Assembly: GCA_947626575.1 (NCBI GenBank)
Contig: CANQSR010000019.1
Location: forward strand, 1-35,578
DNA length: 35,578 bases
Direction of reading: 5' to 3'
DNA from: an uncultured Clostridia bacterium
GTDB lineage: Bacteria; Bacillota; Clostridia; Christensenellales; Borkfalkiaceae
Under the pieces are notes generated by a model. The model was not told the DNA's origin and searched no databases. It worked only from the letters and a program-made list of their open reading frames with translations. A program made the translations under genes and the position numbers. Of this stretch, positions 571 through 35,578 are shown one piece after another. The stretch's first letter is position 1; each line of letters begins with the position of its first letter.

Positions 571-1821
571 TTACAGTACGCAGGTGGCGTAAATGGGGAA
601 TTTTTCGCAGAGGCGGGAGACCTCTTCCGATACGGCAGGGATGGCCGCCTCTTTTTTGCGGATGACCTCGGTCACGAGGCCGGCGATCAGGGCAGCCTCC
701 TCTTCCTTCATTCCCCGCGAGGTGATGGCCGGCGTTCCGATGCGGACGCCGCTCGTCACGAAGGGCGATGCCGTCTCGAAGGGAATGGTATTTTTATTGA
801 CCGTGATGTGCGCTCTATCGAGCAACGCTTCCAGCTCCTTGCCCGTCACATTTTCGCCGCGGAGGTCCACGAGCATGAGATGGTTATCCGTGCCGTCCGA
901 GACGAGTTTTACGCCTTTTTGCATGAACGTTTCGGACATGGTATGGGCATTTTTGATGATCTGCCTCTGATATTCCTTGAATTGCGGCGTCAGCGCTTCC
1001 TTGAAAGCGACGGCCTTCGCCGCGATGACGTGCATGAGCGGGCCGCCCTGCGTCCCCGGAAATACGGCCTTATCGATGGCCTTCGCATACGCCTCTTTGC
1101 ACATGATGACGCCGCCGCGCGGACCCCGCAGCGTCTTGTGCGTGGTGGTCGTCACGAAGTCGGCATAGGGTACGGGCGAGGGATGCAGACCCGCCGCAAC
1201 AAGCCCCGCGATGTGGGCGATATCCACCATCATGAGCGCGCCCACTTCGTCGCAGATACTGCGGATGCGGGCGAAGTCGATGGTGCGCGGATACGCGCTC
1301 GCCCCCGCGACGATCATCTTGGGCCTGCAAGCGCGTGCGGTGCGCGCCATCTCATCGTAATCGATGCGCTCGGTATCTTGGGAGACGCCGTACGGCACGA
1401 TGCGGTAAAAGATGCCCGAATAGTTGACGGGCGAGCCGTGCGTCAGATGCCCGCCGTGGGAGAGGTCCATCCCCATGACGGTATCGCCCGCTTTGAGCAT
1501 CGCAAAGTACACGGCGAAATTGGCCTGCGCGCCGCTGTGGGGCTGGACGTTGGCGTGTTCGCACCCGAACAGCTCTTTGAGGCGGATTACGGCAAGCTCC
1601 TCGGCGATATCCACGAATTCACAGCCGCCATAGTAGCGTTTATGCGGATAGCCCTCGGCGTATTTGTTGGTAAAATGCGACCCCATGGCCGCCATGACGG
1701 CGGGCGAGACGATATTTTCGCTCGCGATGAGTTCTAAATTCCCGCGCTGGCGGGCAAGCTCCTTTTCCATCGCATCGGCGATTTCGGGGTCGGTCTCACG
1801 GATACAGGCCAAATCGATCAT
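571..1821 (-). CDS. glyA: Serine hydroxymethyltransferase
   Basis: PLP enzyme that interconverts serine plus tetrahydrofolate with glycine plus 5,10-methylene-THF. It is the main source of one-carbon units in the cytosol. The 416-residue product has the usual length. Visible marks are LIASEN near residue 31, [15 protein letters not shown] near 91, VDIAHIAGL near 199 and [14 protein letters not shown], where K229 binds PLP. The start is ATG at 1821, preceded by GAGGTG. The longer open frame up to 1920 has no homologous N-terminus and would run through the promoter. The gene is transcribed alone and leftward, divergent from the M48 protease gene. The methylene-THF it makes is also the carbon donor for TrmFO and MnmEG, both relevant to this window. 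Confidence 0.97.
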
Positions 1822-1844
1822 AGCGCACCTCGCTGTTTTTCTCC

Positions 1845-1873
1845 ATTGTAACATATGCCGCGCTTTTAGGCAA
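1845..1873 (-). promoter_or_regulatory. Sigma-A type promoter of glyA
   Basis: On the minus strand TTGCCT (1868-1873) and TACAAT (1845-1850) are separated by 17 bases, about 25 bases upstream of the glyA start codon. Confidence 0.65.
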
Positions 1874-1927
1874 GCGTTTGCGGCGGCTTGAAAAACCGCA
1901 TCGGTCGCGGGAACTTGCATCCAAAGA

Positions 1928-1979: not shown

Positions 1980-3977
1980 ATGAAAACAAAGAATATCTTC
2001 TTTCTTTCGGTCTACACCCTGCTTTCGTTGCTCCTGCCCGCCTTCTTCGCCCCGTTTGCCGCGGATGCGGCGTGGGGCGTCCCGCTCTCGGCCGCTCTTC
2101 TCGCCGGCGGCGGTGCGTTGGTCGCGGGCGCGCTCATCGGCAACCTCGTTTGCGCCCTTCGTTCCCGCAGACGGATGTTGGCCGTCCGCGCGGATGCGGC
2201 GAAGGCGTTTGCGGAGACCGTGCAAAAGAGCATCGTGGAGGATCCCGCCCGCGAACGCAAAAAACTGCTCCGCTTTTTCGCGCTTGCGCGGGCATATAGC
2301 TGTCTCCTGCTCTTCGCGGGGATACTTACCGCCTTCGGCGCATGCGGGCTTACCGCCCATGCGGCCGCCTCGCTCTCCGTGGATATGCTGTTTCTCACGG
2401 CTCTTTTGCTGCGCGCCGCCCTCTTCGTGCTGTTGGAGGCCGTTCCCCTTTTCACGCTCGCGGCGGTACCCATGTCCGAGGGTGAGCCTTCGGAAAACGC
2501 CTTACCCCAAGAAGAATACCCCGCACTCTATGCAATTTTGCAAAGGGCGAAAGAGGCCGTGGGCTACGGGCGGAGCGCCGTCTTTGTGCGGGAGGGTGCA
2601 GGCAGCACGGACGGGGCCCTCGGCATCCGCGAAACAGGCGGCCGCGCCTGTATCACATTGCCGCCCGTACTCTTCTGCCTTGCGACGGAAGAAGAGCTGT
2701 ATGCCGCGCTCGTTCACGAGTGCGCCCACGCCGTCTCCCGCGATACCGCGCTCGCCCGCCGCATCCATGTCATCAACTTCCAATACCGCGGAAAGGCGTT
2801 CTATGCCTTTTGGCGCAACCTCTTTTTCTCGGAGATCGGCGAGCGGCTGGGCTTTCGTTGCGAAGTCTATCAAACGTACGCTTCCCTCCTCTGCGAACAG
2901 CGCGCCGACGAGGCGGTGCGCCTTCACGCAGACGGGCAGGCCTTCATCAACTTTTTGGCAAAGAGCGCCCTCCGCGCGGAATTTTACCGCACGCCGCACC
3001 GCGAACTTTCGTATGATCTCTATGCCTCCGAGCAGCCGCCGACGGACCTCTATACGCGGCATCTGACGTATTTGGAGGCCACCATGTCCGAGCTCTGCGC
3101 GCAGAAAAAGCATATTTTGCTGAGGACGCTTCCCGCAAAGAAGGATTCCCACCCTACCTTGAAGATGCGCATGGAGGCGCTCGGCGCCGAGGACTTCGAC
3201 GTCACCGCGCGCGAGAAGGACGGCGCGCTCTTTTTGGAGCAGAGGCGCTATCTCGCGGAGTACGACGCGGACGCCGCAAGCGATGCGGAGGGCTACCGGC
3301 GGGCGCGGGAGAGCAACTATTTGGGTCCCAAGGAGAATATGGCGCGCTATGAGCGCGGCGAGGCAAACGCCTATGAGGATTATCTCGCGCTCAGCGCCTA
3401 TGCGGACGTCGACTCAGGCAAGGCGCTCGCGCTTGCCGATAAGATCTTGTCATCGCGCGGGTGCATGGATACGCGGTTCATCCGCGCCCGCCTTCTGTGC
3501 CAAACAGACGACCCCGCGGGCATCCCCGCCATGCGGGAAGTACTCCTCCATAGCCTCGATTACTTCTCCCCTGCGGACGAGATCTACACCGAGGCCGTTC
3601 TGCGGTCTGGGGATGAAAAACTGTTGGAAGCGGCGCGCGCCGAGCAGGCCCAAATCATACAGCGCGTGATCGACGAACTCAAACGGCGCATGAAAATCAG
3701 GCCGAATACAAACAGCATCCTCGCCTGCGATCCCGAAGAGAGCAAAATCCTTGCGATGAAGAAGGCGCTGGAACATTGTGCCTCGCACGTCTGGATCGCG
3801 CGGCTCAAAAGTGGCCCCGCCGATTACATCGTGTATGCGGATGCGGACTTTGCAGACGACCCCCTTCCCTATTACTTCTTCTCCTCGCAGGAGGACATGG
3901 GAAACGTTTACTTTCTCTTTGCGGAAAGCGGCCGCATGGCCGCCATCGTCCAAAGGACGGGAACGCTCTTACATTGA
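1980..3977 (+). CDS. Membrane-bound M48-type zinc metalloprotease with long C-terminal region
   Basis: A 665-residue protein. Hydrophobic segments near residues 5-28, 35-60, 104-125 and 133-163 place it in the membrane. The peptidase core follows. HECAH (246-250) gives the two zinc histidines and the catalytic glutamate. E306 in the EQRADE context is the likely third ligand. HPTLKMRMEAL at 391-401 is the motif that follows the core in HtpX and BlaR1-type M48/M56 peptidases. Known members act in membrane protein quality control or signalling. The roughly 265 residues after the core are helix-rich and repeat-like, and I do not recognise them. The start has a weak site (AGG 7 bases upstream) but fits the promoter. 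The gene is monocistronic and ends at a strong terminator shared with trxA. Confidence 0.8.
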   Translation: MKTKNIFFLSVYTLLSLLLPAFFAPFAADAAWGVPLSAALLAGGGALVAGALIGNLVCALRSRRRMLAVRADAAKAFAETVQKSIVEDPARERKKLLRFFALARAYSCLLLFAGILTAFGACGLTAHAAASLSVDMLFLTALLLRAALFVLLEAVPLFTLAAVPMSEGEPSENALPQEEYPALYAILQRAKEAVGYGRSAVFVREGAGSTDGALGIRETGGRACITLPPVLFCLATEEELYAALVHECAHAVSRDTALARRIHVINFQYRGKAFYAFWRNLFFSEIGERLGFRCEVYQTYASLLCEQRADEAVRLHADGQAFINFLAKSALRAEFYRTPHRELSYDLYASEQPPTDLYTRHLTYLEATMSELCAQKKHILLRTLPAKKDSHPTLKMRMEALGAEDFDVTAREKDGALFLEQRRYLAEYDADAASDAEGYRRARESNYLGPKENMARYERGEANAYEDYLALSAYADVDSGKALALADKILSSRGCMDTRFIRARLLCQTDDPAGIPAMREVLLHSLDYFSPADEIYTEAVLRSGDEKLLEAARAEQAQIIQRVIDELKRRMKIRPNTNSILACDPEESKILAMKKALEHCASHVWIARLKSGPADYIVYADADFADDPLPYYFFSSQEDMGNVYFLFAESGRMAAIVQRTGTLLH

Positions 3978-4408: not shown

Positions 4409-5674
4409 TCAGTGATTCCTCCTGTAATCTCTGATATATTGTGCAAGTTCGCCGAATTTTACGCGCTCGGCCTCAGAGCCGCTCATGAACCGCACTTCGG
4501 CCTCCCCCGCCGCCATCTCGTTTTCGCCGATGACGACGACGAAGGTGAAGCCGAGCTTGTCCGCATACTTGAACTGCGCTTTGAGCGAACGGTCCATGAG
4601 GTCGCATTCCGCGATCAGCCCTTTGGAGCGGAGTTCTTCGGCGATTTCAAGCGCGCGGACGCGGGACGCGGCGTCCATGCCCGCGACATAGACGTCGGGA
4701 AGCCGCTCCACGAAGGGCGCATCCACGGCCTCCACGGCAAGCAGGAGCCGCTCGATCCCCGCCGCAAACCCCACGGCGGGCGTGGGCTTGGCATCCATCT
4801 GTTCGAGAAGGCCGTCGTAGCGGCCGCCGCCGAGGACAGTCGCCTGTGCGCCGATGAGGTCGGTCGTAAATTCGAACACGGTGCGGCTGTAATAGTCGAG
4901 TCCGCGCACGATGCGGGGATCGACGGTATATGCGACGCCGGCCGCATCGAGCAGCGATTTGAGCGTCTCGAAATGCGCCCTGCAATCGTCGCAGAGGTAA
5001 TCGAGCATACTCGGCGCGCCGACCGTAAATCTCTTGCACGTCTCGTTCTTGCAGTCGAGGATGCGCAGGGGATTTTTCACGAAGCGCGAACGGCAATCTT
5101 CGCACATTTCGTCGACATGGGGTCTGAAATATTCGTGCAAGGCCTCCGCATACTTGGCGCGGCAATGCTTGCAGCCGATGGAATTGAGGTGAAGCTCGGT
5201 GTACTCGCCGAGGTTCAAAGAATTGAGAAAGCGCGATGCGAGCAAGATGGCCTCGGCGTCTGCGCTTGCGGAAGCGGAGCCATAGAGTTCCGCGCCGAAT
5301 TGGTGGAACTCTCTGAGCCTTCCCGCCTGCGGACGCTCATAGCGGAAGGCAGAGATGAGATAGTAGGCCTTGAAGGGCAATGCGCCGCCCTGCAACCCGT
5401 GTTCTACAAAGGCGCGCGCGACACCCGCCGTGCCTTCGGGGCGGAGCGTGACGGAGCGGCCGCCCTTATCGAGGAAGGTGTACATCTCCTTGTTGACGAT
5501 ATCCGTGGTATCGCCCACGCCGCGCAAAAACAGCTCGGTATGCTCGAATACGGGCGTACGGATCTCCTTGAAGCCATAGCATTCGGCCGTTTCGCGTGCC
5601 GTTTGTTCAACGGCCTGCCAGAGGTAGGCCTCGGAGGGCAACATATCTTTACAGCCCTTGGGGATTTGGATCAT
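4409..5674 (-). CDS. hisS: Histidyl-tRNA synthetase
   Basis: Class II synthetase that charges tRNA-His. The 421-residue product begins MIQIPKGCKDMLP, the normal N-terminus. It has motif 2 (AFRYERPQAGRLREFHQFG) and the two histidine-A type motifs (VDPRIVRGLDYYSRTVFEF and LGGGRYDGL). A C-terminal anticodon-binding domain follows. The middle carries several CxxC pairs (CKHC, CEDC, CDDC), an insertion common in Bacillota HisRS. The start at 5674 has AAAGGAG six bases upstream. The open frame extends to 5866 but runs into repeat DNA. It forms an operon with trxA. Confidence 0.97.
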   Translation of the reverse strand: MIQIPKGCKDMLPSEAYLWQAVEQTARETAECYGFKEIRTPVFEHTELFLRGVGDTTDIVNKEMYTFLDKGGRSVTLRPEGTAGVARAFVEHGLQGGALPFKAYYLISAFRYERPQAGRLREFHQFGAELYGSASASADAEAILLASRFLNSLNLGEYTELHLNSIGCKHCRAKYAEALHEYFRPHVDEMCEDCRSRFVKNPLRILDCKNETCKRFTVGAPSMLDYLCDDCRAHFETLKSLLDAAGVAYTVDPRIVRGLDYYSRTVFEFTTDLIGAQATVLGGGRYDGLLEQMDAKPTPAVGFAAGIERLLLAVEAVDAPFVERLPDVYVAGMDAASRVRALEIAEELRSKGLIAECDLMDRSLKAQFKYADKLGFTFVVVIGENEMAAGEAEVRFMSGSEAERVKFGELAQYIRDYRRNH

Positions 5675-5745: not shown

Positions 5746-5756
5746 CGGACATGGGT
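5746..5756 (-). repeat. Intergenic copy of the ACCCATGTCCG motif
   Basis: ACCCATGTCCG on the minus strand, 72 bases upstream of hisS. Here it forms the loop of a perfect CTACCC/GGGTAG hairpin. It is one of 11 exact copies in the window (see findings). Confidence 0.6.
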
Positions 5757-6799: not shown

Positions 6800-8110
6800 T
6801 TACAGCACGTATTTCTTCAAATTGCGGTCGCTCGTCATGTTTTTGAGATGCTCTTCGACGTATGCGCGGTTGATCTCAACGGGAATGACGGGGTAATCGC
6901 CGCCGCCCGCGTTGAAAGAGATATCTTCAAGAAGATACTCCATCACGGTATGCAGACGCCGCGCGCCGATATCCTCGCTCGTCAGATTGATCTCCTCGGA
7001 GATCTCCGCGATGGCCTCAATGGCATCGGGCGTGAATTTTAGGTCGATGTTATCCACCGCAAGAAGCACGGCATATTGCTGGGTCAGCGAGTGTTCGGTA
7101 CTCGTCAGGATGTTGACGAAGTCCTCTTTGGTGAGCGAATGCAGCTCGACGGATACGGGGAAGCGGCCTTGCAATTCGGGGATGAGGTCCTCGACGCGCG
7201 AGACGTGGAAGGCGCCCGCCGCGATGAACAGCATATAATCCGTCTTGACGGGGCCGTATTTGGTCATCACCGTGCTGCCCTCGACGATGGGAAGGATGTC
7301 ACGCTGGACCCCCTCGCGGGAGACGTCCGCCCCCGAAGTGTTGCCCTTGCCCGCGATCTTATCGATCTCGTCGATGAAGATGATGCCGTCGTTCTCCGCC
7401 CTGCGCAGGGCCTCGTCGGTGACGGCGTCGTCGTCGATGAGTTTCTCCGCCTCTTCGGCGATGAACATCTTCATGGCCTCCTTCACGGTCAGCTTGCGCT
7501 TTTTGCGGCGTTCGGGAAGCATCTCGCCAAAGATGGAGCCTAAATTGATGGCGGCCCCGCCGGGAACGAGTTCCATGCTCTTGGGTTCATCGCGGACTTC
7601 CGCCTCGATGACGGTCTTATCGAAGGTCCCCTTTCTGAGGGAAGTAAGCAGATTGTCCTCGAAAATTTTGCGGTCGAGTTCGCCGCGCTCGTTCTTTTTA
7701 AGTTCCACGAGGATCTTCAGCATACGCTGTTCGGCGGCCTCGGTGGCCTTCGCCGAGACCTCCGCCGTCTTTTCATCCTTGACGAGGCGGATGGCGCATT
7801 CGACCAGATCGCGCACCATGCCCTCGACGTCCTTGCCGACATAGCCGACTTCGGTATATTTGGTGGCCTCGACCTTGATGAAGGGCGCCCGCACGAGTTT
7901 TGCGAGCCGCCTTGCGATCTCCGTCTTGCCCACGCCCGTGGGACCCTTCATGATGATGTTCTTGGGCGTGATCTCCTCGCGCAGTTCGGGCGAGAGCTGT
8001 GCGCGGCGGTAACGGTTCCTGAGGGCGATGGCGACGGCCTTTTTGGCCTCGTCCTGCCCGATGATGTGCTTATTTAATTCGGTTACGATTTGTTTGGGTG
8101 AAAGATCCAT
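6800..8110 (-). CDS. hslU: HslU, ATPase subunit of the HslUV protease
   Basis: AAA+ unfoldase that forms hexameric rings on HslV, unfolds substrates and feeds them into the HslV chamber. The 436-residue product has Walker A GPTGVGKT (56-63), the pore-loop GYVG (89-92) and Walker B IIFIDEID (243-250). The I domain lies between. The sensor-2 motif is SEDIGARRLHTVMEYLLE, and the C-terminus LKKYVL is the tail that activates HslV. The start ATG at 8110 has GAAGGAG 6 bases upstream. In most Bacillota hslU directly follows hslV. Here a DUF559 gene and repeats separate them by about 660 bp. codY, the usual next gene in Bacilli, is absent. Confidence 0.97.
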   Translation of the reverse strand: MDLSPKQIVTELNKHIIGQDEAKKAVAIALRNRYRRAQLSPELREEITPKNIIMKGPTGVGKTEIARRLAKLVRAPFIKVEATKYTEVGYVGKDVEGMVRDLVECAIRLVKDEKTAEVSAKATEAAEQRMLKILVELKKNERGELDRKIFEDNLLTSLRKGTFDKTVIEAEVRDEPKSMELVPGGAAINLGSIFGEMLPERRKKRKLTVKEAMKMFIAEEAEKLIDDDAVTDEALRRAENDGIIFIDEIDKIAGKGNTSGADVSREGVQRDILPIVEGSTVMTKYGPVKTDYMLFIAAGAFHVSRVEDLIPELQGRFPVSVELHSLTKEDFVNILTSTEHSLTQQYAVLLAVDNIDLKFTPDAIEAIAEISEEINLTSEDIGARRLHTVMEYLLEDISFNAGGGDYPVIPVEINRAYVEEHLKNMTSDRNLKKYVL

Positions 8111-8157: not shown

Positions 8158-8168
8158 CGGACATGGGT
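8158..8168 (-). repeat. Intergenic copy of the ACCCATGTCCG motif
   Basis: ACCCATGTCCG on the minus strand in the leader of hslU, next to GGGGTAGG, so ACCC and GGGT can pair as in the copy at 5746. Confidence 0.55.
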
Positions 8169-18545: not shown

Positions 18546-19784
18546 TCAGATTTCGCCGTCCAAAATTTCTTCGGGCGTCTGCGGAGCGGGAACGCGCTCC
18601 TCGATCCCCTGCACGCACGCGTACGTATCCCTTCTCACAAGCGTACGCGCAACCAGCTGCCCCGCCTCGTAGACGGCGAGATAGCTCTCGCTGCAAAGCC
18701 CCGCGCGCTCCTGCCGCACGATGCGGTTTTGCGTTCCCTCCACGATCTTCACCGACGGCGGGTCCAAACGGAACAGCACCCTGCTCTCCACTTCATACTG
18801 CCTTCCGTCGGGCAGGCCGTAGATGCAAAATGTGACCTGTCCCCCCGTAATTTCGGATAAAATATAGACGGGGTACGGGTACGGGTTGGTAAATTTCAGA
18901 TCGCTGTATGAGGAGACCATGGCGTCCTGCGAGGGGGCAACATACCCCACCGTGAGCGAATGCGGGTGGCTCTCCTCCACCTTCATGCCTGCGCGGAGGG
19001 CCGCGCCGAAGAGGGTGGTGCTCGCCTGGCACACCCCGCCGCCCACGCCGCGCACGAACTCGCCGTCCATGATGACGGCCGCCTCCTCGAAGCCGTTCTC
19101 CGCCGTACGCGCCCCCACACGGCGGTTGAAGGAGAAGGTCTCCCCGCTTCCGATCTCGGTCCCCGCGATGCGCGAAGCCGCCAGCGCGATATTGTGGCTG
19201 CGCGGGGCGTTGGAGGCGTCGAATTTGGTGGAAAACTTGGCAAGAAGCTGCGTGCGTTCGCGCAAAAGCTCCTCCGTGACGGCGGGCTTTATCTCGCGGC
19301 AGACGAGCGAAACGCGCGTCTCCCCCTGTTTCAAGGCCCGCGAGACCGCCTTGACCAGCCCGTCTCGGTCGCACGCGACGCCGTTCTCTTCGGGATGGTA
19401 CGTAAACCCATCCGCATCGAAGCCGAGGCGGGCGTCTTTGCCCTCCTTGGCATTCAAGAGGCATACCATGTCCGCGAACTGCTCCAACAAAACGCATTCG
19501 CGGCGGACGTTTACGGTGTAACTTTGTCCCTTTTTCGCATGTTTCAAGACGCTCTCCGCGTCGTCGGAATAGTCGATGGAGAGCGGAAACTCCCCCGCTG
19601 GGGAGATGACGCAAAGCGGAAGGCGGTCGAGCCGCTTACGGACGGTATCGAGCGCCTCGGATTGGGACATGCCCCCCACGTCGATGCCGTTCACCTGCAC
19701 GTTGCGCTTGATACGGCCGCCGCCGCACGCGCCCAAAAAAAAGCTCCCCGCAAGGAGGAGCGCCGCGATCTTCATATATTTCAT
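18546..19784 (-). CDS. VanW-family lipoprotein with peptidoglycan-binding-like and G5-like regions
   Basis: A 412-residue exported protein. The signal segment ends in the lipobox LGAC (cysteine near residue 18), so it is probably lipid-anchored outside the membrane. VQVNGIDVGGMSQSEALDTVRKRL is the start of a type-4 peptidoglycan-binding-like domain. The VanW domain has SFNRRVGARTAENGF and GVGGGVCQASTTLF. A G5-like end (RVLFRLDPPSVKIVEGTQNRIVRQE) closes the protein. VanW takes its name from vancomycin-resistance clusters, but its function is unknown, and this gene says nothing about resistance. The ATG at 19784 overlaps the PHP stop as ATGA. The longer open frame to 20192 is the shadow of the PHP gene. 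Confidence 0.88.
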   Translation of the reverse strand: MKYMKIAALLLAGSFFLGACGGGRIKRNVQVNGIDVGGMSQSEALDTVRKRLDRLPLCVISPAGEFPLSIDYSDDAESVLKHAKKGQSYTVNVRRECVLLEQFADMVCLLNAKEGKDARLGFDADGFTYHPEENGVACDRDGLVKAVSRALKQGETRVSLVCREIKPAVTEELLRERTQLLAKFSTKFDASNAPRSHNIALAASRIAGTEIGSGETFSFNRRVGARTAENGFEEAAVIMDGEFVRGVGGGVCQASTTLFGAALRAGMKVEESHPHSLTVGYVAPSQDAMVSSYSDLKFTNPYPYPVYILSEITGGQVTFCIYGLPDGRQYEVESRVLFRLDPPSVKIVEGTQNRIVRQERAGLCSESYLAVYEAGQLVARTLVRRDTYACVQGIEERVPAPQTPEEILDGEI

Positions 19785-20692
19785 ACGCTCCCTTCGAGGC
19801 CGAGGAGCCGCTCCGTGAGCGCCGCATCCGCATCGAAGGGGGGCTGTCCGAGCATTGCGCTCGCGCCTTCGGCGTGAAAATCCGAACCGCCCGTCACATA
19901 GAGATGCCTCGCCGCCGCGAATGCGAGAAATTCCTCCGTCTCTATGGCAGTATGCCGCGTGTAGATACATTCTATGCCGTCGAGGCCGGCGTCTGCGAGC
20001 TTCTCCATGATTTGGATGCGCCGCACGCGCCCCGCCGCGTCCAATTGCTCTTTGATGCGCTCGTCGTCCGTCTCCCGCCACCGCTTCATCTCTTCGGCGG
20101 TCAGGCAGAAGATGCGTCCGGGATGCGCCAAAACGGCGATCCCGCCCGTCCGGTGGATGACGCCGACGGCCTCGAAGGGCGTCGGGCGGCATTCGCCCGC
20201 AAACGCGGGTCCGCCGAATGCGAAGGCCTCCCCATAGAGCGGCCCCGCGTCCCTATGTAGCTTTTCCCCGAACGCCCGCACGACGTGCATCGTGTGCAGA
20301 GGGGTATCCTTTCGGACATGGTATGCCTCGACGTCGTCCATGGTGACGTTGACGCCGTAAAATTCGTTGGCGAGGCGCACCATCTTTTCCGCGCGGATCC
20401 GCCCGCCCTCGAAGCGTTCTTTGAGAAAGGCGCGGTAGACTTCGTCGGTGCGGCACCCGTAGCCGAGGATGTGGATCTTATCCGTCCCCTCGTAAGAGGA
20501 GACCTCCCAGCCGCGCACGAAGTGAAGCCCCAGCGCGCGGGCCGCGGCCGCCCCCTCCTCCGCGCCGCCCATGTTGTCGTGGTCGGTGACGGAAAAGAGT
20601 TGAAGCCCCGCGCGCTTTGCCATCGCCGCCAGCTCGGCGGGGCGGTGCAGGCCGTCCGAATACACGGAATGCAGATGCAGATCGGCTCTCAT
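19781..20692 (-). CDS. PHP-domain phosphoesterase
   Basis: A 303-residue PHP-fold metal-dependent phosphoesterase. Metal-binding motifs are visible: DLHLHSVYSDG at the N-terminus, SVTDHDN, the glutamate in RGWEVSSYEG, VLAHPGRI and GSDFHAEG. The architecture matches the single-domain YciV/RNase AM and nucleoside-bisphosphatase group, which removes phosphates from short oligonucleotides or pAp. The exact substrate cannot be read. The ATG at 20692 overlaps the recF stop (ATGA), and its own stop overlaps the VanW-type gene the same way, so recF-PHP-vanW form one coupled operon. Confidence 0.88.
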   Translation of the reverse strand: MRADLHLHSVYSDGLHRPAELAAMAKRAGLQLFSVTDHDNMGGAEEGAAAARALGLHFVRGWEVSSYEGTDKIHILGYGCRTDEVYRAFLKERFEGGRIRAEKMVRLANEFYGVNVTMDDVEAYHVRKDTPLHTMHVVRAFGEKLHRDAGPLYGEAFAFGGPAFAGECRPTPFEAVGVIHRTGGIAVLAHPGRIFCLTAEEMKRWRETDDERIKEQLDAAGRVRRIQIMEKLADAGLDGIECIYTRHTAIETEEFLAFAAARHLYVTGGSDFHAEGASAMLGQPPFDADAALTERLLGLEGSV

Positions 20693-23283: not shown

Positions 23284-25149
23284 ATGCAGACTTTTCATGA
23301 GACAACCTGCGATGCCGTCGTCATCGGCGCGGGACATGCGGGCGCCGAAGCCGCCCTTGCGCTCGCGCGCACGGGGCTTCAAACCGTAGTATTGACGCTC
23401 AATCTCGACAGCATCGGCTTCATGCCCTGCAACCCCTCCGTCGGCGGCACCGCGAAGGGGCATTTGGTGCGCGAGATCGACGCCCTCGGCGGGGAAATGG
23501 GCGTCTGCGCGGATAAATGCGCCCTGCAATACCGTATGCTCAACGAGGGCAAGGGCGCGGCCGTGCAGTCCCTCCGCGCGCAGGTGGATAAAAACCGCTA
23601 TCACACCGAGATGAAGCGCGTGTTCGAGCATACGCCCAACCTGCATATCTTACAGGGCGAGGCCGCGGAGATCTTGGTGGAAGAGGGGAAAGTCGCCGGG
23701 GTCAGAACGGCTTACGGCGGCGTCATCGTCTGCCGCGCCGTCGTCGTCGCGACGGGCGTTTATTTGGGCGCACGCACGATCACGGGTACCCATGTCCGCG
23801 AAGCGGGGCCCAACGGCTTCGAACGCGCTACCCTTCTTACCCAAAATCTTCTCGCGCTCGGCTTTCGCGTGAGACGCTTCAAGACGGGTACTCCCGCCCG
23901 CCTCGACGGCCGCACCGTGGACTTTTCCGCGCTCGCCGCGCAGCCGGGCGAGGAGACGTATCCCTTCTCGTTTTTGAACGGCGGCGTCCCCGCCGTCTCC
24001 CGCCAGACGCCCTGCCATCTCGCCTATACCAACGGCGAAACGCACCGTCTGATCCTTGATAATCTTGACCGCGCCCCCCTCTATAACGGGGAGATCAACT
24101 CCGCGGGGCCGCGTTACTGCCCCTCCATCGAAACCAAGGTCGTGCGCTTTGCGGATAAGTCCCGCCACCAGCTCTTTTTGGAGCCGGAGGGTGCGGATAC
24201 GACGGAGATCTATGTGCAGGGTCTCTCCACTTCCCTGCCCCATGACCTCCAAAAGCAGGTGTACCGCTCCGTCAAGGGCCTCGAACACTGCGAACTCGTG
24301 CGCTATGCCTATGCCATCGAATACGACTGCATCGACAGCCTCGACCTATTGCCCACGCTCGAATACAAGCGCGTGGAGGGTCTCTATACGGCGGGGCAGA
24401 TCAACGGCACGAGCGGGTATGAAGAGGCCGCCGCGCAGGGCCTCATCGCGGGGCTGAACGCCTCGCTCAAACTCAGGGGGCGTCCCCCGCTCGTCCTGCG
24501 CAGGGATCAAGCCTATATCGGCGTCCTCATCGACGATCTCGTGACGAAGGGAACGGACGAACCCTACCGCATGATGACTTCCCGCGCGGAGTTCCGCCTC
24601 GTCCTGCGGCAGGACAATGCGGATGCGCGTCTCACGGAGATCGGCTACGCCGCGGGTCTCGTCAGCGAGGAGCGGTATCGGAAGTATTTGGAGCGTAAGG
24701 CCAAAAAGGAGGCCACCATGTCCGCGTTAGGCCTTCGCGCAGAGCAAAAAACCGCCAACGCGCTCGTCGTAAAATACGGCCAGCCGCCGCTCACGGCGGG
24801 GGTCACTTATGCAGACCTTATCCGCCGCGGCATTCCGCTGAAAGAGATACGGGAGGCCTTCGGCGTGTTGGGGGACGTCCCCCGCGACATTGCCGAAAGC
24901 TGTGAAACGGAGATCAAATACGCGGGGTATTTGAAGCGCAGTGAGGAAGAGATCGCGCAGATGAAGAAGATGGAGGATACCCCGCTCCCCGCGGACCTCG
25001 ATTACGGCGCGCTTGCGGGCCTTCGGTTGGAGGCGCGCGAAAAGCTCGCCCGCATCCGCCCGTTGAATTTGGGGCAGGCCGCCCGCATTTCCGGCGTCTC
25101 CCCCGCCGACATCGCCGTCCTCATGGTCTATCTGAGCATGACCCGTTGA
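23284..25149 (+). CDS. mnmG: tRNA uridine-5-carboxymethylaminomethyl modification enzyme MnmG (GidA)
   Basis: FAD enzyme that works with MnmE to add a (carboxymethyl)aminomethyl group to the wobble uridine of several tRNAs, using methylene-THF. The 621-residue product begins with the FAD fold AVVIGAGHAGAEAALALARTG. It has the signature FMPCNPSVGGTAKGHLVREIDALGGEMG, GPRYCPSIE and GQINGTSGYEEAAAQGL, and ends in the helical MnmE-binding domain. The start ATG at 23284 follows GTAGGAAT. It lies 47 bases after dnaA and is probably co-transcribed with it. In Bacilli mnmEG and rsmG are near the origin too, but mnmE and rsmG are not seen here. Confidence 0.97.
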   Translation: MQTFHETTCDAVVIGAGHAGAEAALALARTGLQTVVLTLNLDSIGFMPCNPSVGGTAKGHLVREIDALGGEMGVCADKCALQYRMLNEGKGAAVQSLRAQVDKNRYHTEMKRVFEHTPNLHILQGEAAEILVEEGKVAGVRTAYGGVIVCRAVVVATGVYLGARTITGTHVREAGPNGFERATLLTQNLLALGFRVRRFKTGTPARLDGRTVDFSALAAQPGEETYPFSFLNGGVPAVSRQTPCHLAYTNGETHRLILDNLDRAPLYNGEINSAGPRYCPSIETKVVRFADKSRHQLFLEPEGADTTEIYVQGLSTSLPHDLQKQVYRSVKGLEHCELVRYAYAIEYDCIDSLDLLPTLEYKRVEGLYTAGQINGTSGYEEAAAQGLIAGLNASLKLRGRPPLVLRRDQAYIGVLIDDLVTKGTDEPYRMMTSRAEFRLVLRQDNADARLTEIGYAAGLVSEERYRKYLERKAKKEATMSALGLRAEQKTANALVVKYGQPPLTAGVTYADLIRRGIPLKEIREAFGVLGDVPRDIAESCETEIKYAGYLKRSEEEIAQMKKMEDTPLPADLDYGALAGLRLEAREKLARIRPLNLGQAARISGVSPADIAVLMVYLSMTR

Positions 25150-27778: not shown

Positions 27779-28750
27779 TCAGTTATCGAACTTCACTTCA
27801 AACGACGTTTGCAGGGGGTAGGATGCGGGCATGGTACCCTCCAAATCCGTCCCGTGCAATTTCACCGCATGGATCGCGGCGTTTTGGTAGGTCGTATAGT
27901 AATAGACGCCCTCCTCTAAATCGCAGCAGGAAGAATAGACGGTCTCCTCATAGACCCCCTCCCGAAGCCGCATACAGCCGCGCGGCACCGCCACGCTCCC
28001 CAAAATATGGAAGAACCCGTTTATGTCGTCGGCAAGCTCCTTGCCCGTGACGAGAAACTCCCGTACGAAACAGGCGCGCACAAAGCGTCCCGCCGAAGCA
28101 AAGTCGCCCGGAAGGCCGATACTGCCCATGCCGCGGCTGTAATTTTCAGCCGTCCCCTTCCCGAACACCGCTTTGGGTTCGTCGGGCGTCAGGGACATGT
28201 AGTCGCAAAGACGGTTCATCTGCATGGGGAAGACGGGATTGTTGGTCATGACCCCCGCCGCATCGTCATAGAGCATGAGGCCGTCCGCCACGGGTTCGGC
28301 GACGAAGCTCTCCTTTCCGTCCGAGATCATCCAATGGAGCGGGGTGAGGGGCAGGCGGTCGCTGAACGGGATATTGACCACATTCACGCCTTTGAGAAGC
28401 TCTTTCGCCTCCGCGACCGTCTTGCATTTTCCGAGGACAAAGGGGATCATTTCAAAGGGCGTGACGTTGTAGACCCCCACCATGTCCGCATGATAGACCG
28501 CGTTTTTCGGAAAATTGAGTCCCGCCATGCCGAGGCCGTGTTCATTGACGGCGTCGAAATAGAGCGGCATACCGCCCTGTACGATGGCCATGCCGATCAT
28601 GGCGTAATGGTGCGCCATCTCGCCTTCGCGGCGGAAAGAGATCTTCAAGTTACGGGGAGCGATCACCACGCTTTCGCCGAAGCTCCCCTCCAAATCGAGA
28701 TTGCGCCCGAACAGGCGATGTTTTGCTTGCAAAGCTACCGCAGTACACAT
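27779..28750 (-). CDS. Choloylglycine hydrolase family protein (bile salt hydrolase/penicillin acylase V type)
   Basis: An Ntn-hydrolase of 323 residues that cleaves amide bonds of conjugated bile acids, or of penicillin V or acyl-homoserine lactones in relatives. The start MCTAVAL places Cys2 as the N-terminal nucleophile once Met is removed. GRNLDLE (Arg and Asp of the active site), NEHGLGMAGLNFP, MTNNPVFPMQMNRL and GLPGDFASAGRFVRACF (active-site Arg) are all present. The ATG at 28750 has GGAGG 5 bases upstream. The longer frame to 28894 runs into the promoter. Bile acids as substrate are inferred from the family and not proven. The gene is monocistronic. Confidence 0.9.
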   Translation of the reverse strand: MCTAVALQAKHRLFGRNLDLEGSFGESVVIAPRNLKISFRREGEMAHHYAMIGMAIVQGGMPLYFDAVNEHGLGMAGLNFPKNAVYHADMVGVYNVTPFEMIPFVLGKCKTVAEAKELLKGVNVVNIPFSDRLPLTPLHWMISDGKESFVAEPVADGLMLYDDAAGVMTNNPVFPMQMNRLCDYMSLTPDEPKAVFGKGTAENYSRGMGSIGLPGDFASAGRFVRACFVREFLVTGKELADDINGFFHILGSVAVPRGCMRLREGVYEETVYSSCCDLEEGVYYYTTYQNAAIHAVKLHGTDLEGTMPASYPLQTSFEVKFDN

Positions 28751-29071: not shown

Positions 29072-29073
29072 AT

Positions 29074-29131: not shown

Positions 29132-29135
29132 GCCA

Positions 29136-29160: not shown

Positions 29161-29174
29161 CCGTTCTTCAACGG

Positions 29175-30278
29175 TCAATTATAATCGACCTTTTGAGCCT
29201 CTTTTCGCATGAATTCCCGCGAAAAATGGGTATAAACATTGCTCGTCTGCGTATTATCGGCGGCATGCCCCGCCCATACGGATACGACTTCGCGCGCCAC
29301 GCCCGACTCTTGACAGCGGGTGATATACGTATGCCGCAACTCATGTAGATGATGATCCGGCATAAGGCGCTTGAATGCTTGCGTGAGCGCATCCGGGCGT
29401 ACCGTGCGCACTGCTCCAAGATCAATTTCAGGCAGCACGCGCGCCAGCACGGGCGTAATGGGGATGAGGCGCTTTCGCTCTTGAAACCCTTTCCGCACTT
29501 TCGCACATACGACGGAGAGAAACCCCTCGTCGAATTCTGCGCCGGCAAGCTCACTTCTGCGCATGCCCGTATAAAGCAACACGAGGAGCGCGCCCTTGAT
29601 CTCAGGCGCACAGCCGCTGGCACCGAGACGCGCAATAAATTCCCGCTCTTCGGCAAGCGTAAGAGCGCGGCCGTTTTTCTCCTCGTATTTCGGCGGATGC
29701 AACATTCTGAGCGGCGATTTTTCAATCAGTTCTTCCCCCACTGCAAATTCAAAGATCGCTTTCAGGGTCTGATAAATTTTCGTTGCCGTGCGCAACTTAT
29801 TCTGCAAAATGTAAGCGTTAATGAGAGACTGTATATCCGATTGCCTGATCTCCCGCAATTCCAGCCCGCCGAGAGCGGGTAAAATATTCGTCTCAAACAG
29901 ACCTTGATAAAATTTGCAGGTACTCTCTTTGATCGATGGCTTCTTTAACTCGAACCATCCGGCCAAAACGTCCGAAAACAGCACGCTCTTCTGTTGCAAC
30001 AAGGGATGATCCCCGCTCATCGGCGCGGAATTACGGATCGCATCGAGGAGCTTCCCCCTCAAAGCATCGTAATCTTTGGTAGAAACGCAGATTCTCAGCC
30101 CAAATTTTCGAAACCTTGCTTCATATACACCGTTCATTTTTTTCCGAACATGGACGGGTAGTTGTATTGTAAAAACTTTTTGAAATTCTTCCGGCATTTG
30201 CCTTATCTCCTTCTTGGTAAAGTAAATTGCCGATTTCGATGCGGTAGGATCTTTCTTTTCTGTTTTTACCTCCTTCAC
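29175..30278 (-). CDS. Tyrosine-type site-specific integrase
   Basis: A 367-residue recombinase that would insert and excise the element at tRNA-Gln. It has an N-terminal arm-binding region, a SAM-like core-binding domain (about 95-190) and a catalytic domain. The catalytic residues are all seen: R in TGMRRSELAG, H-x-x-R in HELRHTYITR, H in WAGHAADN and the nucleophile Y in SNVYTHFS. The GTG start at 30278 overlaps the stop of the upstream 52-codon gene as GTGA. An internal ATG at 30197 has the better ribosome site (AAGGAG) and would give 340 residues. The residues FTKKEIRQMPEEF just before and across it look conserved in such integrases and favour the longer form. Confidence 0.92.
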   Translation of the reverse strand: MKEVKTEKKDPTASKSAIYFTKKEIRQMPEEFQKVFTIQLPVHVRKKMNGVYEARFRKFGLRICVSTKDYDALRGKLLDAIRNSAPMSGDHPLLQQKSVLFSDVLAGWFELKKPSIKESTCKFYQGLFETNILPALGGLELREIRQSDIQSLINAYILQNKLRTATKIYQTLKAIFEFAVGEELIEKSPLRMLHPPKYEEKNGRALTLAEEREFIARLGASGCAPEIKGALLVLLYTGMRRSELAGAEFDEGFLSVVCAKVRKGFQERKRLIPITPVLARVLPEIDLGAVRTVRPDALTQAFKRLMPDHHLHELRHTYITRCQESGVAREVVSVWAGHAADNTQTSNVYTHFSREFMRKEAQKVDYN

Positions 30279-30433
30279 GCCAGGGAAATAGAGAACATTC
30301 CCATCGGCGTTTTTTTTGCTTCTTCAATGAGCGCACGGCGCTCTTCTTCATCGCGGGCGATGATTCCGAGCAGTTGGGCGGAAAGCGTATGCAATTGAAA
30401 CGCGATCGCTCTGATGTCCTTTGGATCTATCAT
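30275..30433 (-). CDS. 52-residue protein upstream of the integrase, unrecognised
   Basis: A short frame beginning MIDPKDIRAIAFQLHTLSAQ and ending MGMFSISLA, predicted largely helical and acidic in the middle (ARDEEERRALIEEAKK). AAGGAG lies 8 bases before its ATG at 30433. Its stop TGA overlaps a GTG start of the integrase, which suggests coupled translation. By position it could be an excisionase-type or leader protein, but no DNA-binding motif is visible, so the function is unknown. Confidence 0.7.
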   Translation of the reverse strand: MIDPKDIRAIAFQLHTLSAQLLGIIARDEEERRALIEEAKKTPMGMFSISLA

Positions 30434-30441
30434 AAAATTTT

Positions 30442-30467
30442 CTCCTTGGCGAAGTATCGCCGAGGAG
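30442..30467 (-). promoter_or_regulatory. Hairpin that can hide the ribosome site of the integrase leader gene
   Basis: CTCCTCGGCGA and TCGCCAAGGAG on the minus strand pair over 11 bp with one mismatch and a 4-base loop. The AAGGAG ribosome site of the 52-residue gene is the right arm. The hairpin lies between the repressor stop (30479) and that gene. Confidence 0.6.
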
Positions 30468-30478
30468 TATTTTATCTA

Positions 30479-30838
30479 TCAAGCCTTTTTCGGTAAAGCG
30501 GTTTTTATAGGTTCTCCGGCAAACATCCGGAGGCTTTCAAGCTCATGACTTCGATATTCGGCCGGGAGTTTGCGGAAGAGACGCAAAAGCTCCTCTTCCT
30601 CATCGGTGAGCGACGCCCCTCCTTCGGTAGGTTTGCGAACATCGCTTTTCCCAACCAAATAGTCAAGAGAGACATCGAAGTAATTTGCAATAATTTGCAA
30701 TTTTTTTACCGGGGGAACCTCATCTGAGCTTTCCCACATGCCGACACTACCGACGCCAACTCCAAGCTCTCGTGCCAATTTTGCTTGCGATAGCCCAGAT
30801 TCTTCTCGAAGTTGTTTGATTCTTAAACGAAATTTCAT
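30479..30838 (-). CDS. XRE-family repressor of the element
   Basis: A 119-residue regulator. The HTH is MKFRLRIKQLREESGLSQAKLARELGVGVGSVGMWESSDEVPPVKKLQIIANYF, with DVSLDYLVGKSD closing the fold. An acidic C-terminal helix follows (LTDEEEELLRLFRKLPAEYRSHELESLRMFAG), of the kind seen in phage CI-like and ICE repressors without a protease domain. The ATG at 30838 follows GGTGG, and the frame is open 8 codons further to 30862. It is divergent from the 93-residue gene across a region with paired inverted repeats, the typical lysogeny-switch layout, and upstream of the integrase on the same strand. Confidence 0.88.
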   Translation of the reverse strand: MKFRLRIKQLREESGLSQAKLARELGVGVGSVGMWESSDEVPPVKKLQIIANYFDVSLDYLVGKSDVRKPTEGGASLTDEEEELLRLFRKLPAEYRSHELESLRMFAGEPIKTALPKKA

Positions 30839-30852
30839 ATTCCACCGCTTGA

Positions 30853-30965
30853 ATTTTATCATAGAATGTGAGCAAAAAAAATATTTTCACAAATTCACTC
30901 TGAAATTATTATAAAACCATTGACAATACTCAAATTTTATGATAAACTACTCATAATTTCAGAGT
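30853..30965. promoter_or_regulatory. Divergent operator region with paired inverted repeats
   Basis: A perfect 13-bp inverted pair, ACTCTGAAATTAT (30897-30909) and ATAATTTCAGAGT (30953-30965), brackets the rightward promoter. A second inverted pair, TTTATCATA (near 30856) and TATGATAAA (near 30938), lies over the start of the leftward gene and the rightward -10 zone. These are the likely binding sites of the XRE repressor. Confidence 0.65.
30920..30948 (+). promoter_or_regulatory. Rightward promoter of the element
   Basis: TTGACA (30920-30925) and TAAACT (30943-30948) are separated by 17 bases, between the arms of the 13-bp inverted repeat. Repressor bound there would block it. Confidence 0.7.
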
Positions 30966-33198: not shown

Positions 33199-33350
33199 CG
33201 CAAAAACAAGTTCAGAAGATCCGCAAAGGGCTTGCGTGCTGTTCACAATCTGAACCCGCATGCCCCGACTGCCCCTACATAGACACCCACGACTGCGCGT
33301 CTAAACTCGCAAAAGAAGCCATCGGCTATATAGAGGACGACAACGCATGA
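33195..33350 (+). CDS. 51-residue cysteine-rich miniprotein
   Basis: MTQKQVQKIRKGLACCSQ..., with six cysteines in the pattern CC-x6-C-x2-C-x8-C. The CxxC and CC groups suggest a small metal-binding fold. Similar cysteine-rich short proteins occur among hypothetical proteins of gut phages, and none has a known job that I can name. AGGAGG lies 7 bases before the ATG. Both ends overlap the neighbours by ATGA (33195-33198 and 33347-33350), so it is translated as part of the chain. It has no signal peptide, unlike its neighbours. Confidence 0.75.
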   Translation: MTQKQVQKIRKGLACCSQSEPACPDCPYIDTHDCASKLAKEAIGYIEDDNA

Positions 33351-35422
33351 TCCGACGCATATCCACAACCATATCGACGCTTATCCTCATCGCCGCGATC
33401 GCGGCTCTCTCCTTCTTGACTGAGGCCCGCGGCGTACTTGTTCGCGCCGCGGATGCCTCCGTCTCGTACGCGAAGAGCGCCGTCATGGACGATCTGAAAG
33501 GCGCAACGATCGACGGCAAGATCTTCGATCTCGACGACTACCCGGCTAAGGCGGATGCCGCGCCGGAGCTTTTGCTTTTCACCGAGTATTGTTTCAGCAA
33601 AGATCCCGCGAAGGCAAAGGACTTCGGGCTTTTTGCTTACGTCTACAACCCCGGCGGGATTACCTTTGATAACTCCGTCGCGGCCAATACATATTTTAAC
33701 AAGATCCAACTCGCGGTGAATGAGCAAGGCTATCGAAAATATAGCATGATCTATCTCAACCGCAGTACGGCCGCCGACGGATGCGACGGGCGGTTTTACA
33801 AATTTCAGATCTCGTTGGGCGAAAATACGCGCGATGAGCTTCTCGAAGAGCTGGCGAAAAATGAAGAACGCGTTTACAAGCTCAGTGGGTTCGAACTTCG
33901 CGACCCCGCCGCTTTTAATGCGACGGAATACGCGATCGCGCAGACCTACACCTTCACGGGCTATGTCAAGGGATACGGCGCCGGTTCTCAGAACGAAAGC
34001 ACGCTAAGCTGTACCCTCGATGCGCTTGATACCGTCGCCTTCGACGTCAATCACACTTTTTACCGAACAAAGACGTCTGAACTCGGCGGAAATTACAAAA
34101 AACAAATCAACACTGTCTATTTCGCCGTTCCCAAACAGCTCTTCGAGGCTTACGGAAAACTTCAACGCATTAAGGCGGAATGGTATGAATATAAGACGAA
34201 ACCCATCGTCGTAACATCCGATCGGGATTTTTACAACGCCGCACTGCCCTATGTTGGAAAACTGATCACCGAAGGCGGAAACACGAACTATGATACAAAC
34301 ATCGGTTATGGCATCGGGTCAGAGGCGTTGTATGATGATTTCAATACAGCTTTAAGTCAATTTCTCGGATATAATTGGAACATTTTACCGGACTCGCACT
34401 TCTTAGGGAGCGGCGACAAACAAATTAAAAAACTTGTTTACTTGCTTCCCACCAAAAATTGGTGCGGCATTGATGAATATGATCCGCTTACGGACTATTC
34501 AGATTCGCTTGAAGGGCAAGGGAATGCCCTTTTGAATTACATATACGCATATCAACCGAAGCCGGAAGGCCAAGAAGGAGGCGGCGATAGCGGCTTTGGC
34601 GGAGGCGGTGGAGGTAGCTGGGACGTCGGCGGAGAAATGCCCTCTTTTGACGGAGAAATCTCCTTCCCCACCGTCAACGTCAAGGGCGGTACTCTTCCCG
34701 CCGAACTTTTCGAAGATGACATCGACGACTCCCGCAAAATTACCAACGAGAGCGGCAACATCGACTTCGGCTACTCCTATTACGACTTCAACGCAAATAC
34801 CGATCTGCATACTTTGAACACTTGGAGCGACACCAAGCCGTCTTTTTGGGATACATGGAACGCGTTCGGATTTTGGGACGCGATACTCGACCGCGTTCCC
34901 CAAGAGGCGAGTAAAACCGCCGCGCCTATCTACGTATTGACAGATACCGATATGAGCGCATCCAATGCAGATCTCATCGACAATTTACTTATCAATGCAA
35001 AAGATGTAGACGCTATCCGCGCGGCGTACAACGAAGCGGAACAAAATGATGAATACCTCGTCTTATTCCGCTTTGCGGTAAGCGATTACTACTCTGCCGC
35101 GGCCGAAATTCTCCAATATGGCCTTCTCCATACCGACGAAATCACCGGAAGGGCCTACATCGCGCAGGAAAGCGTATTTCTTGACTTTGACGTTATCCAA
35201 CTCACCTTTGAGAAGGAAAGCGTAAAAACCATCGTACCGGCGGTATCCTCCCCCATCGACATCGTCAACGATCCCACGCCGCCAACCGATATGCCGCCGG
35301 ATACAAACGGCGCGGAAAAAATTATCAAGATCATCCTCGCGGTGATCCTCACCGTCGTCGTCGCCGTACTGATCGGCGTCATCATCTATAAAGTCATAAA
35401 GAACCGGAGGGAAAAATCATGA
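33347..35422 (+). CDS. Large exported protein with Gly-rich linker and C-terminal membrane anchor
   Basis: A 691-residue protein of no recognised family. The N-terminus (MIRRISTTISTLILIAAIAAL) is a signal peptide. The ectodomain is rich in Tyr, Asp and Asn. A glycine-rich linker (about 405-428, GGGDSGFGGGGGGSW) splits it into two parts. The C-terminus has Pro/Thr-rich residues (DPTPPTDMPPDTNG), one transmembrane helix (about 660-685) and a basic tail (KVIKNRREKS). The topology is thus outside-facing with a short cytosolic end. This layout resembles filamentous-phage adsorption proteins (pIII type), but also any type I surface protein. Start and stop both overlap neighbours as ATGA. Confidence 0.75.
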   Translation: MIRRISTTISTLILIAAIAALSFLTEARGVLVRAADASVSYAKSAVMDDLKGATIDGKIFDLDDYPAKADAAPELLLFTEYCFSKDPAKAKDFGLFAYVYNPGGITFDNSVAANTYFNKIQLAVNEQGYRKYSMIYLNRSTAADGCDGRFYKFQISLGENTRDELLEELAKNEERVYKLSGFELRDPAAFNATEYAIAQTYTFTGYVKGYGAGSQNESTLSCTLDALDTVAFDVNHTFYRTKTSELGGNYKKQINTVYFAVPKQLFEAYGKLQRIKAEWYEYKTKPIVVTSDRDFYNAALPYVGKLITEGGNTNYDTNIGYGIGSEALYDDFNTALSQFLGYNWNILPDSHFLGSGDKQIKKLVYLLPTKNWCGIDEYDPLTDYSDSLEGQGNALLNYIYAYQPKPEGQEGGGDSGFGGGGGGSWDVGGEMPSFDGEISFPTVNVKGGTLPAELFEDDIDDSRKITNESGNIDFGYSYYDFNANTDLHTLNTWSDTKPSFWDTWNAFGFWDAILDRVPQEASKTAAPIYVLTDTDMSASNADLIDNLLINAKDVDAIRAAYNEAEQNDEYLVLFRFAVSDYYSAAAEILQYGLLHTDEITGRAYIAQESVFLDFDVIQLTFEKESVKTIVPAVSSPIDIVNDPTPPTDMPPDTNGAEKIIKIILAVILTVVVAVLIGVIIYKVIKNRREKS

Positions 35423-35578
35423 CATTTTCAAAAAGTAAGCTACTCGCGGCGCTCTCGGCGCTGTTTGCCGCAATCATTCTTTTTTGCATGTTGACCGCGT
35501 CCGTGGGACCCATGTCCGCATCGGCCGCTTCGGTCGCAAACGTTTTTGCAAATTCCACGATGGATTTCCGCCTCACTT
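35419..35578 (+). CDS. 5' part of a secreted protein gene (runs off the right edge)
   Basis: The first 53 codons of a further gene in the chain. Its ATG overlaps the stop of the 691-residue gene (ATGA, 35419-35422) and GGAGG lies 11 bases upstream. It opens with MTFSKSKLLAALSALFAAII, a signal peptide with a likely cut after ASA (SVGPMSASAAS). A copy of the ACCCATGTCCG motif lies inside it at 35508-35518. Nothing can be said of function. Confidence 0.7.
   Translation, partial: MTFSKSKLLAALSALFAAIILFCMLTASVGPMSASAASVANVFANSTMDFRLT

Follow-up and report, generated by a model that had tools for sequence, protein, structure and literature searches.

A conserved 9-bp core with helically phased flanks marks candidate DNA-wrapping sites in an uncultured Clostridia genus

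Introduction

Chi and KOPS are short, over-represented, asymmetric words, and some Lrp-type proteins wrap DNA. The uptake signal sequence (USS) of Haemophilus influenzae has a 9-bp core present in 1,465 copies, is accompanied by AT tracts and a shape preference, and is relatively evenly spread over the genome (PMC7811141). Bacillus subtilis carries ~70 palindromic Noc sites, which are missing from the terminus region (PMC4331003). The DNA gyrase motif of Escherichia coli extends over 130 bp with a 10.75-bp GC periodicity on both sides of its centre, and is symmetric and hence not directional; gyrase cleavage sites in this species are under-represented in Ter and over-represented in Ori, and their placement is attributed mainly to transcription, together with a motif whose length and degeneracy are described as putting it beyond standard motif finders (PMC6379681). 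Gyrases from three species share the periodic preference (PMC12324340). The statements that carry citations, here and below, draw on extracts of the cited papers. Here we analyse the 9-bp word CCATGTCCG, which is strongly over-represented in a 35,578-bp stretch of DNA (contig C19, hereafter the window) from G000, the genome of an uncultured Clostridia bacterium.

The word is best explained as the recognition centre of ~300 sites per carrier genome, each ~100 bp long, that would be candidate docking sites. It resembles Chi and KOPS in being a short, over-represented, asymmetric word but differs from them in its long flanks and in its strand balance in the three main carriers. Like the gyrase motif of E. 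coli and strong gyrase sites (those of Mu and BIME-2), the element is long, with composition phased at 10–11 bp on both sides; like E. coli gyrase sites, it has no direction in the main carriers and is sparse in a block that may be the terminus (PMC6379681). In contrast to the gyrase motif, it has a fixed asymmetric core, present in hundreds of exact copies that are retained at the same place in different species. With the USS of Pasteurellaceae and the DNA uptake sequence (DUS) of Neisseriaceae it shares a short core found on both strands and, with the USS, AT tracts beside the core (PMC7811141), but it is unevenly spread, phased over ~100 bp, not linked to comEC and very uneven among species. 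Noc sites in B. subtilis and SlmA sites in E. coli are likewise scattered; they are missing from the terminus region (PMC4331003), as the element is nearly missing from its terminus-like block. Here, however, there are hundreds of non-palindromic phased sites and no second Noc-like ParB in G000. Below we report the enrichment of the word, its extended consensus and phasing, its conservation, its strand balance in three carriers, one near-empty syntenic block and its occurrence in one genus, all obtained by computation.

Results

The G000 assembly comprises 1.90 Mb in 35 contigs (97.4% complete, 0.59% contamination). All 11 exact copies of CCATGTCCG that a preliminary description of the window had listed were recovered on the strands given there; the coordinates in that description begin at the A preceding the core. 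This is far above chance, as 0.38 copies are expected and the maximum in 100 shuffles was 2, and under an order-3 Markov model the word is the most over-represented 9-mer of the window (11 against 0.22). Nor does the genome-wide count fall near expectation, an outcome that the preliminary description had named as refuting its observation: CCATGTCCG occurs 316 times in 1.9 Mb (165 plus, 151 minus), compared to 13 for the reversed word. In a sample of 836 kb, made up of the window and 40 further stretches, we count 151 copies against 4.4 expected from the same type of model. One-mismatch words are also enriched in this sample (312 against 170 expected), CCATGCCCG being a marked case (58 against 12.7), and the two near misses reported earlier, ACCATGTCCT at 9582 and GGCATGTCCG at 12981, both on the minus strand, do exist. 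The statement that the core always occurs in an ACC or ACCC form holds for all 11 copies in the window, but loosens to 74 of 83 in a 436-kb genome sample. Copies do lie both in genes and in spacers, as had been said; with genes called by a simple codon-usage script, eight are inside genes and three (5746, 8158 and 35510) outside, not two. The hairpin described at 5746 is real, but few sites have GGGT at +9..+15 (7 of 84 in the ACCC class, 6 of 185 in the ACC class), and the hairpin is therefore not part of the element.

Base preferences continue beyond the core at fixed distances. GACS is found at -17 to -14, an A/T-rich AAWA at -12 to -9 and G at -7 and -5, while TA or AC directly precedes the core and M-R-R follows it, which gives the extended consensus GACS-N-AAWA-N-G-N-GS-N-(TA/AC)-CCATGTCCG-MRR. 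The position of the upstream flank is identical in the ACC and ACCC classes, and this unshifted flank led us to reject the idea that the classes differ by a one-base insertion. Site-like flanks (score >2) also accompany near misses, at 47% of CCATGCCCG (n=93), 46% of GCATGTCCG (n=28) and 65% of CCATGTCTG (n=17).

The A+T content around the core oscillates with a period of 10.6–11 bp, phase-locked to the core, over ~100 bp. This was seen in 297 deduplicated sites with at least 150 bp on each side, taken from genomes G000, G009 and G016 (stretches of G002 and G005 were also scanned and contributed 0 sites). Maxima fall at about -52, -40, -29, -18, -10, -2, +3, +12, +25, +33, +43 and +57, the best single period is 10.6 bp to the left and 11.1 bp to the right of the core, and the oscillation is distinct between about -50 and +45 and weaker further out. 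The oscillation appears independently in 137 genic sites, after correction for codon phase, and in 47 intergenic sites; in the genic set the power peaks at 10.5 bp. At 10.6 bp the amplitude for the motif is 1.39 (302 sites, with G041 added), compared to a mean of 0.114 (sd 0.069) for 300 random 9-mers; the highest value among them (0.595) belongs to a word overlapping the motif. The strongest single result is a scan of 10,747 8-mers with 60–1500 copies, in which the 16 most strongly phased words all overlap the motif. The scan was blind to the letters of the motif, but its 10.6-bp period was taken from the motif.

The preliminary description placed the bias at the level of DNA and not of protein, and our data agree, since the word is found on both strands and outside genes and since the flanks keep a fixed register with the core whether a site is genic or intergenic. 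The 151 sites in 836 kb divide into 112 genic ones (119 expected if uniform; 61 on the strand of the gene, 51 opposite) and 39 outside called genes. Between two called genes (n=64), 4 sites lie in divergent spacers, which make up 17% of intergenic bases, and 15 in convergent spacers, which make up 16%. Several reading frames are used, as had been claimed, but the mixture is uneven: ATG is in frame at 93 of the 112 genic sites (49 sense, 44 antisense), 18 are in the CAT-GTC frame or its antisense and the remaining frame is used once. A larger set gives 187 of 232 genic sites with ATG in frame. We take this bias to reflect what proteins tolerate. Shared codon context alone, the other ground for doubt raised at the outset, fails as an explanation because intergenic sites carry the same flanks.

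Conservation in related genomes, a check suggested in the preliminary description, was assessed in blastn alignments of G000, G009, G016 and three named loci, where a shared site is counted from both sides. Of 124 orthologous site views, 62 retain the motif exactly, compared to 14–16% of control 9-mers. By pair the numbers are 24/45 for G000 and G009, 22/41 for G000 and G016, 10/31 for G009 and G016, and 6/7 for G000 and the named loci. Only 14 of the 124 views fall on alignment gaps, the other 110 being ungapped, and in example alignments the motif stands, ungapped, where relatives have other letters, near misses among them. The sites are thus held well above background yet replaced over time by substitution. 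Orthologous positions of individual window copies are included in Table 1.

Table 1 Copies of the core in the window, with their contexts and orthologous positions
Feature	Position	Strand	Context	Orthologous position
Core CCATGTCCG, ACC class	933..941	-	Inside glyA, sense	
Core, ACCC class	2470..2478	+	Sense, inside gene with weak peptidase M48 match (1980-3977)	
Core, ACC class	3082..3090	+	Sense, inside M48-like gene 1980-3977	
Core, ACCC class	5746..5754	-	Spacer upstream of hisS (4409-5674); loop of CTACCC/GGGTAG hairpin	
Core, ACCC class	8158..8166	-	Spacer upstream of hslU (6800-8110)	
Core, ACC class	19466..19474	+	Antisense, inside VanW-like gene 18546-19784 (similarity below curated cut-off)	Near miss CCATGTCCA in L032
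Core, ACC class	20313..20321	-	Sense, inside PHP-type phosphoesterase-like gene 19781-20665 (below curated cut-off)	Exact in L032; CCATGCCCG in L064
Core, ACCC class	23790..23798	+	Sense, inside mnmG	Exact at same place in L031, L032, L064
Core, ACC class	24716..24724	+	Sense, inside mnmG	Exact at same place in L031, L032
Core, ACC class	28480..28488	+	Antisense, inside choloylglycine (bile salt) hydrolase gene 27779-28693	
Core, ACCC class	35510..35518	+	Near contig end, no called gene there	
Full-element example	23740..23848	+	Core 23790-23798 plus phased flanks of ~50 bp either side (boundaries from pooled profile)	

Within contigs carrying at least five sites, the two strands are balanced in G000 (p 0.74, 3 contigs), G009 (p 0.65, 6 contigs) and G016 (p 0.46, 3 contigs), and the imbalance is borderline in G002 (p 0.074); strands were listed per contig, some contigs being covered only in part. 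Orientation relative to GC skew is 38 versus 43 (81 of the 151 sites) and relative to the majority gene strand 53 versus 46 (99 of 151). The comparison with GC skew is weak because the skew in G000 mostly follows the gene strand.

The sites are sparse in one large block. Contig C2 of G000 has 6 sites in 195 kb, compared to ~32 predicted from the genome mean. Its counterpart in G016, contig C1, is syntenic with C2 from ~1 to 124 kb and has 2 sites in 123 kb. In contig C4 of G009, which has 0 sites in 105 kb, synteny with C2 covers ~5 to 61 kb and is followed by synteny with portions of C21 and C10. One site was counted in the 40 kb sampled from C10, and none in the 20 kb sampled from each of C13, C20 and C21. 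Past 124 kb, the comparison with G009 and G016 showed nothing that corresponds to C2. The block contains core genes (recognised by eye), and genes converge inside it in all three genomes (at ~27.5 kb in C2). The fourfold-site skew, taken by hand as the mean of both gene strands where both had genes, changes sign or nears zero in the block. We infer that this site-poor syntenic block is the replication terminus. The window, which bears dnaA, is rich in sites (11 in 35.6 kb), and the G009 contig with the dnaA orthologue has 31 in 133 kb. Contamination of the bin as the cause of motif-poor contigs is disfavoured, since C2 carries the tetranucleotide signature of the genome itself (mean correlation with C1 0.861, compared to 0.857 within C1), C2 has core genes and the syntenic parts in G009 and G016 are motif-poor too. 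A further 42 kb without the motif, on contig C1 of G000 (~31.9-73.7 kb), includes a 3,584-codon open frame that starts like a lipoprotein. In five contigs of G000, G009 and G016 (148 sites), the distance between neighbouring sites is never below 486 bp. Close pairs were seen in other listed contigs, at 33 and 42 bp in contigs C3 and C7 of G009, and many motif copies in G015, G018 and G044 are paired, 12–150 bp apart.

The element was detected in a single uncultured Clostridia genus, and there in only some of the species. Copies of CCATGTCCG per genome range from 7 to 333 within the genus and from 0 to 30 in 13 genomes from other genera of the same family. In some other families the word exceeds its reversed control, some genomes having 20–50 copies or more. 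Three such genomes, with 33–49 copies each, are without the element: at 29 sites read of their 118 (30 loci were taken and one was removed by a distance filter), the mean flank score is -6.9 to -10.5, compared to +10.8 at sites of the element (leave-one-out) and -14.9 at random places. Because these 29 sites on average lack the element, the reversed-word control underestimates the background, and genus members with up to ~40 copies are therefore not counted as carriers. Flanks of the site type accompany the pooled G000, G009 and G016 sites, 8 of the 10 sites read from G041 and 4 of 7 from G015 and G018; the other 3 of these 7 copies (L302, L303) are without a site-like flank. No dialect 9-mer stood out in ~100 kb each from the low-count genomes G019, G012, G001 and G006, a sample (391 kb) several-fold smaller than the high-count pool, which a rare dialect could escape. 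In 31 named relatives' loci (L033-L063) a few words were phased more strongly, with ATGATGAC at the top (0.82, 38 copies); words of this type may belong to another repeat or to another kind of phased site.

In a GyrA tree, the four highest of 20 counted species (G000, G016, G009 and G002) belong to a single clade of seven, together with G041 (232 copies), G046 (144) and G012 (11). A label for high counts (at least 80 copies), which covers 7 of 24 rows, G041 and G046 having been counted only later, requires 7 changes on the tree, and 500 of 500 shuffles are as low. The label is not clustered, and gyrA ancestry was thus rejected as the cause of the patchy occurrence. We found no title or abstract describing such a motif in the open-licence literature, which is weak evidence of its absence from print. 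The nine letters of CCATGTCCG occur in 238 papers, and the 20 of these that were listed have titles on other subjects.

Several other features of the window were recorded. The closest named relatives by MnmG are uncultured Clostridia metagenome-assembled genomes, several from samples labelled Lapin, and MnmG of Candidatus Borkfalkia is 66% identical to that of the window. The genes recF and dnaA are divergent within 20689-25149, with mnmG directly after dnaA. A ParB gene beside mnmG is usual in many bacteria; here the main ParB gene is on contig C11. The choloylglycine hydrolase gene scores above the curated cut-off and fits a gut habitat. A tRNA gene (28997-29068, plus strand) is followed by a phage-type tyrosine integrase (29175-30278, minus) and a CI-like helix-turn-helix repressor (30479-30862, minus), and the region 28997-30862, which looks like an element integrated at the tRNA gene, is without any copy of CCATGTCCG. 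An intergenic repeat occurs in two copies 679 bp apart (25466-25602 and 26145-26281), each with one GGGACAGCAAG and two AGGCTTCTATT; further copies of GGGACAGCAAG are at 398, 5965 and 6523. On some contigs these words are present; in the stretches sampled from others, including C2 and C4, there are none. The repeat forms an interspersed family separate from the CCATGTCCG element.

Discussion

The phasing of the flanks, the lack of direction in the main carriers, the conservation and the terminus-like gap together lead us to propose that the sites are docking sites for a DNA-wrapping complex, and since the gyrase motif of E. coli is of such a type, we propose gyrase as that complex. We infer from these sequence features that DNA is wrapped at the sites and that the wrapping complex may be DNA gyrase. 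With some hesitation we therefore regard the elements as candidate strong gyrase sites with an unusually fixed core, although their membership among gyrase sites is unproven. An asymmetric core between rotationally phased flanks would be arranged as in DNA bent round a protein. A DNA-wrapping topology complex would dock there, and docked gyrase would place supercoiling activity over the chromosome outside the terminus; the sites might also mark domain borders. Most genomes of the genus have two type IIA topoisomerase A subunits.

Several observations weigh against the identification with gyrase. Gyrase is universal, whereas the element is patchy within the genus, and in the 391 kb from G019, G012, G001 and G006 there is no strongly phased 8-mer beyond A-tract words (top 0.45 of 5,845). 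The known motif is very degenerate, with no fixed 9-bp core reported in the extracts of its description (PMC6379681), and it covers 130 bp, compared to ~100 bp of clear phasing here. The published cleavage rule (-4G/+8C, -2A/+6T, +1G/+4C) fits best with +1 at index -7, at 4.8 bits, but 7.6% of random palindromic rules fit equally well or better, which is non-significant. A two-fold symmetric enzyme should favour a palindromic core, whereas the consensus is palindromic only in CATG and the A+T phase is moderately symmetric (r 0.62 at the best centre, -3.5). In the intergenic set an 8.5-bp component slightly exceeds the 10.5-bp one (0.207 versus 0.191), because two pairs of maxima (-10/-2 and +25/+33) are 8 bp apart. 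In G015 the sites are strand-skewed by contig (p 0.015). As to the terminus, no conserved counterpart of a one-mismatch dif candidate at 46029 of C2 was seen in the stretches of G009 and G016 examined, and the skew has no clean flip at dnaA; for these two reasons we speak of a terminus-like block.

Among the roles listed in the preliminary description, a nucleoid-protein-type site is closest to the data, an uptake signal is possible but fits poorly, and a Chi- or KOPS-like site and an insertion footprint are disfavoured. A dedicated, sequence-specific nucleoid protein that wraps DNA at the sites, Noc- or SlmA-like in distribution, would organise the chromosome or keep division off it until the terminus has segregated. 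We consider this main rival possible but doubtful, and nearly as likely as gyrase. The asymmetric fixed core suits a dedicated binding protein, the near-absence from the terminus-like block resembles that of nucleoid-occlusion sites, and the patchy occurrence (7 to 333 copies) suits a factor that is gained and lost better than it suits gyrase. However, known Noc sites are palindromic and much rarer, and each of 31 genus genomes has one strong ParB-family match, with weaker extras (427-477-aa frames) only in G005, G015 and G024 and no Noc-like paralogue in G000. No candidate protein was found, in a study that made no systematic gene-presence comparison of high- and low-count species. A dedicated, sequence-encoded nucleosome-like array, in which a novel or strongly altered wrapping protein would read the fixed asymmetric core together with its phased flanks and position several hundred particles nearly everywhere outside the terminus domain, is doubtful to a similar degree; it would amount to a genome-wide system of positioned chromatin, gained or lost repeatedly within the genus. 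A signal of the USS or DUS type for natural transformation, which to our knowledge would be the first in Clostridia, accounts for the size and copy number of the core, its over-representation on both strands, its origin by substitution and the enriched near misses; AT-rich flanks at helical spacing, sites in core genes and the presence of comEC, dprA and a comM-type gene also agree with it. The phasing nevertheless spans ~100 bp across both sides of the core, compared to roughly 31 bp for the USS. Moreover, comEC is present in 29 of the 31 genomes whatever the site count, species with background counts included, and the block of core genes is near-empty in three species (0 sites in 105 kb of G009, 2 in 123 kb of G016 and 6 in 195 kb of G000). 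These last two points make an uptake signal much less likely, and we judge it improbable.

The comparable enrichment, the strand skew in G015 and the slight one in G002 speak for a directional site of the Chi or KOPS kind, read by AddAB or FtsK. The lack of strand imbalance in G000, G009 and G016, the absence of orientation by GC skew (itself a weak test) or by majority gene strand, and preferred bases that reach 17 bp upstream leave such a role with hardly any credibility. We also regard it as very unlikely that the copies are an interspersed repeat or the footprint of an insertion, or that they merely follow from codon context (T-M-S-x, x-D-M-x). The in-frame ATG at 93 of 112 genic sites speaks for codon context, as do the 33–49 copies in the three genomes of other families; the frequency of the 9-mer in families without the element implies that part of any count is codon background. 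Codon context does not account for intergenic sites that are equally phased, and the flank scores separate the sites (+10.8) from the copies in other families (-6.9 to -10.5). The insertion footprint, another of the roles proposed earlier, is disfavoured by the 110 ungapped views among the 124.

Hundreds of wrapping sites with an exact and evolutionarily kept core would allow a direct question, namely which sequence fixes a topoisomerase or a nucleoid protein on the chromosome. It could also be asked why one large region stays free of sites, and by what route sister species come to share or lose such a system. Should a protein other than gyrase bind the sites, they would represent an unrecognised kind of bacterial chromatin positioning.

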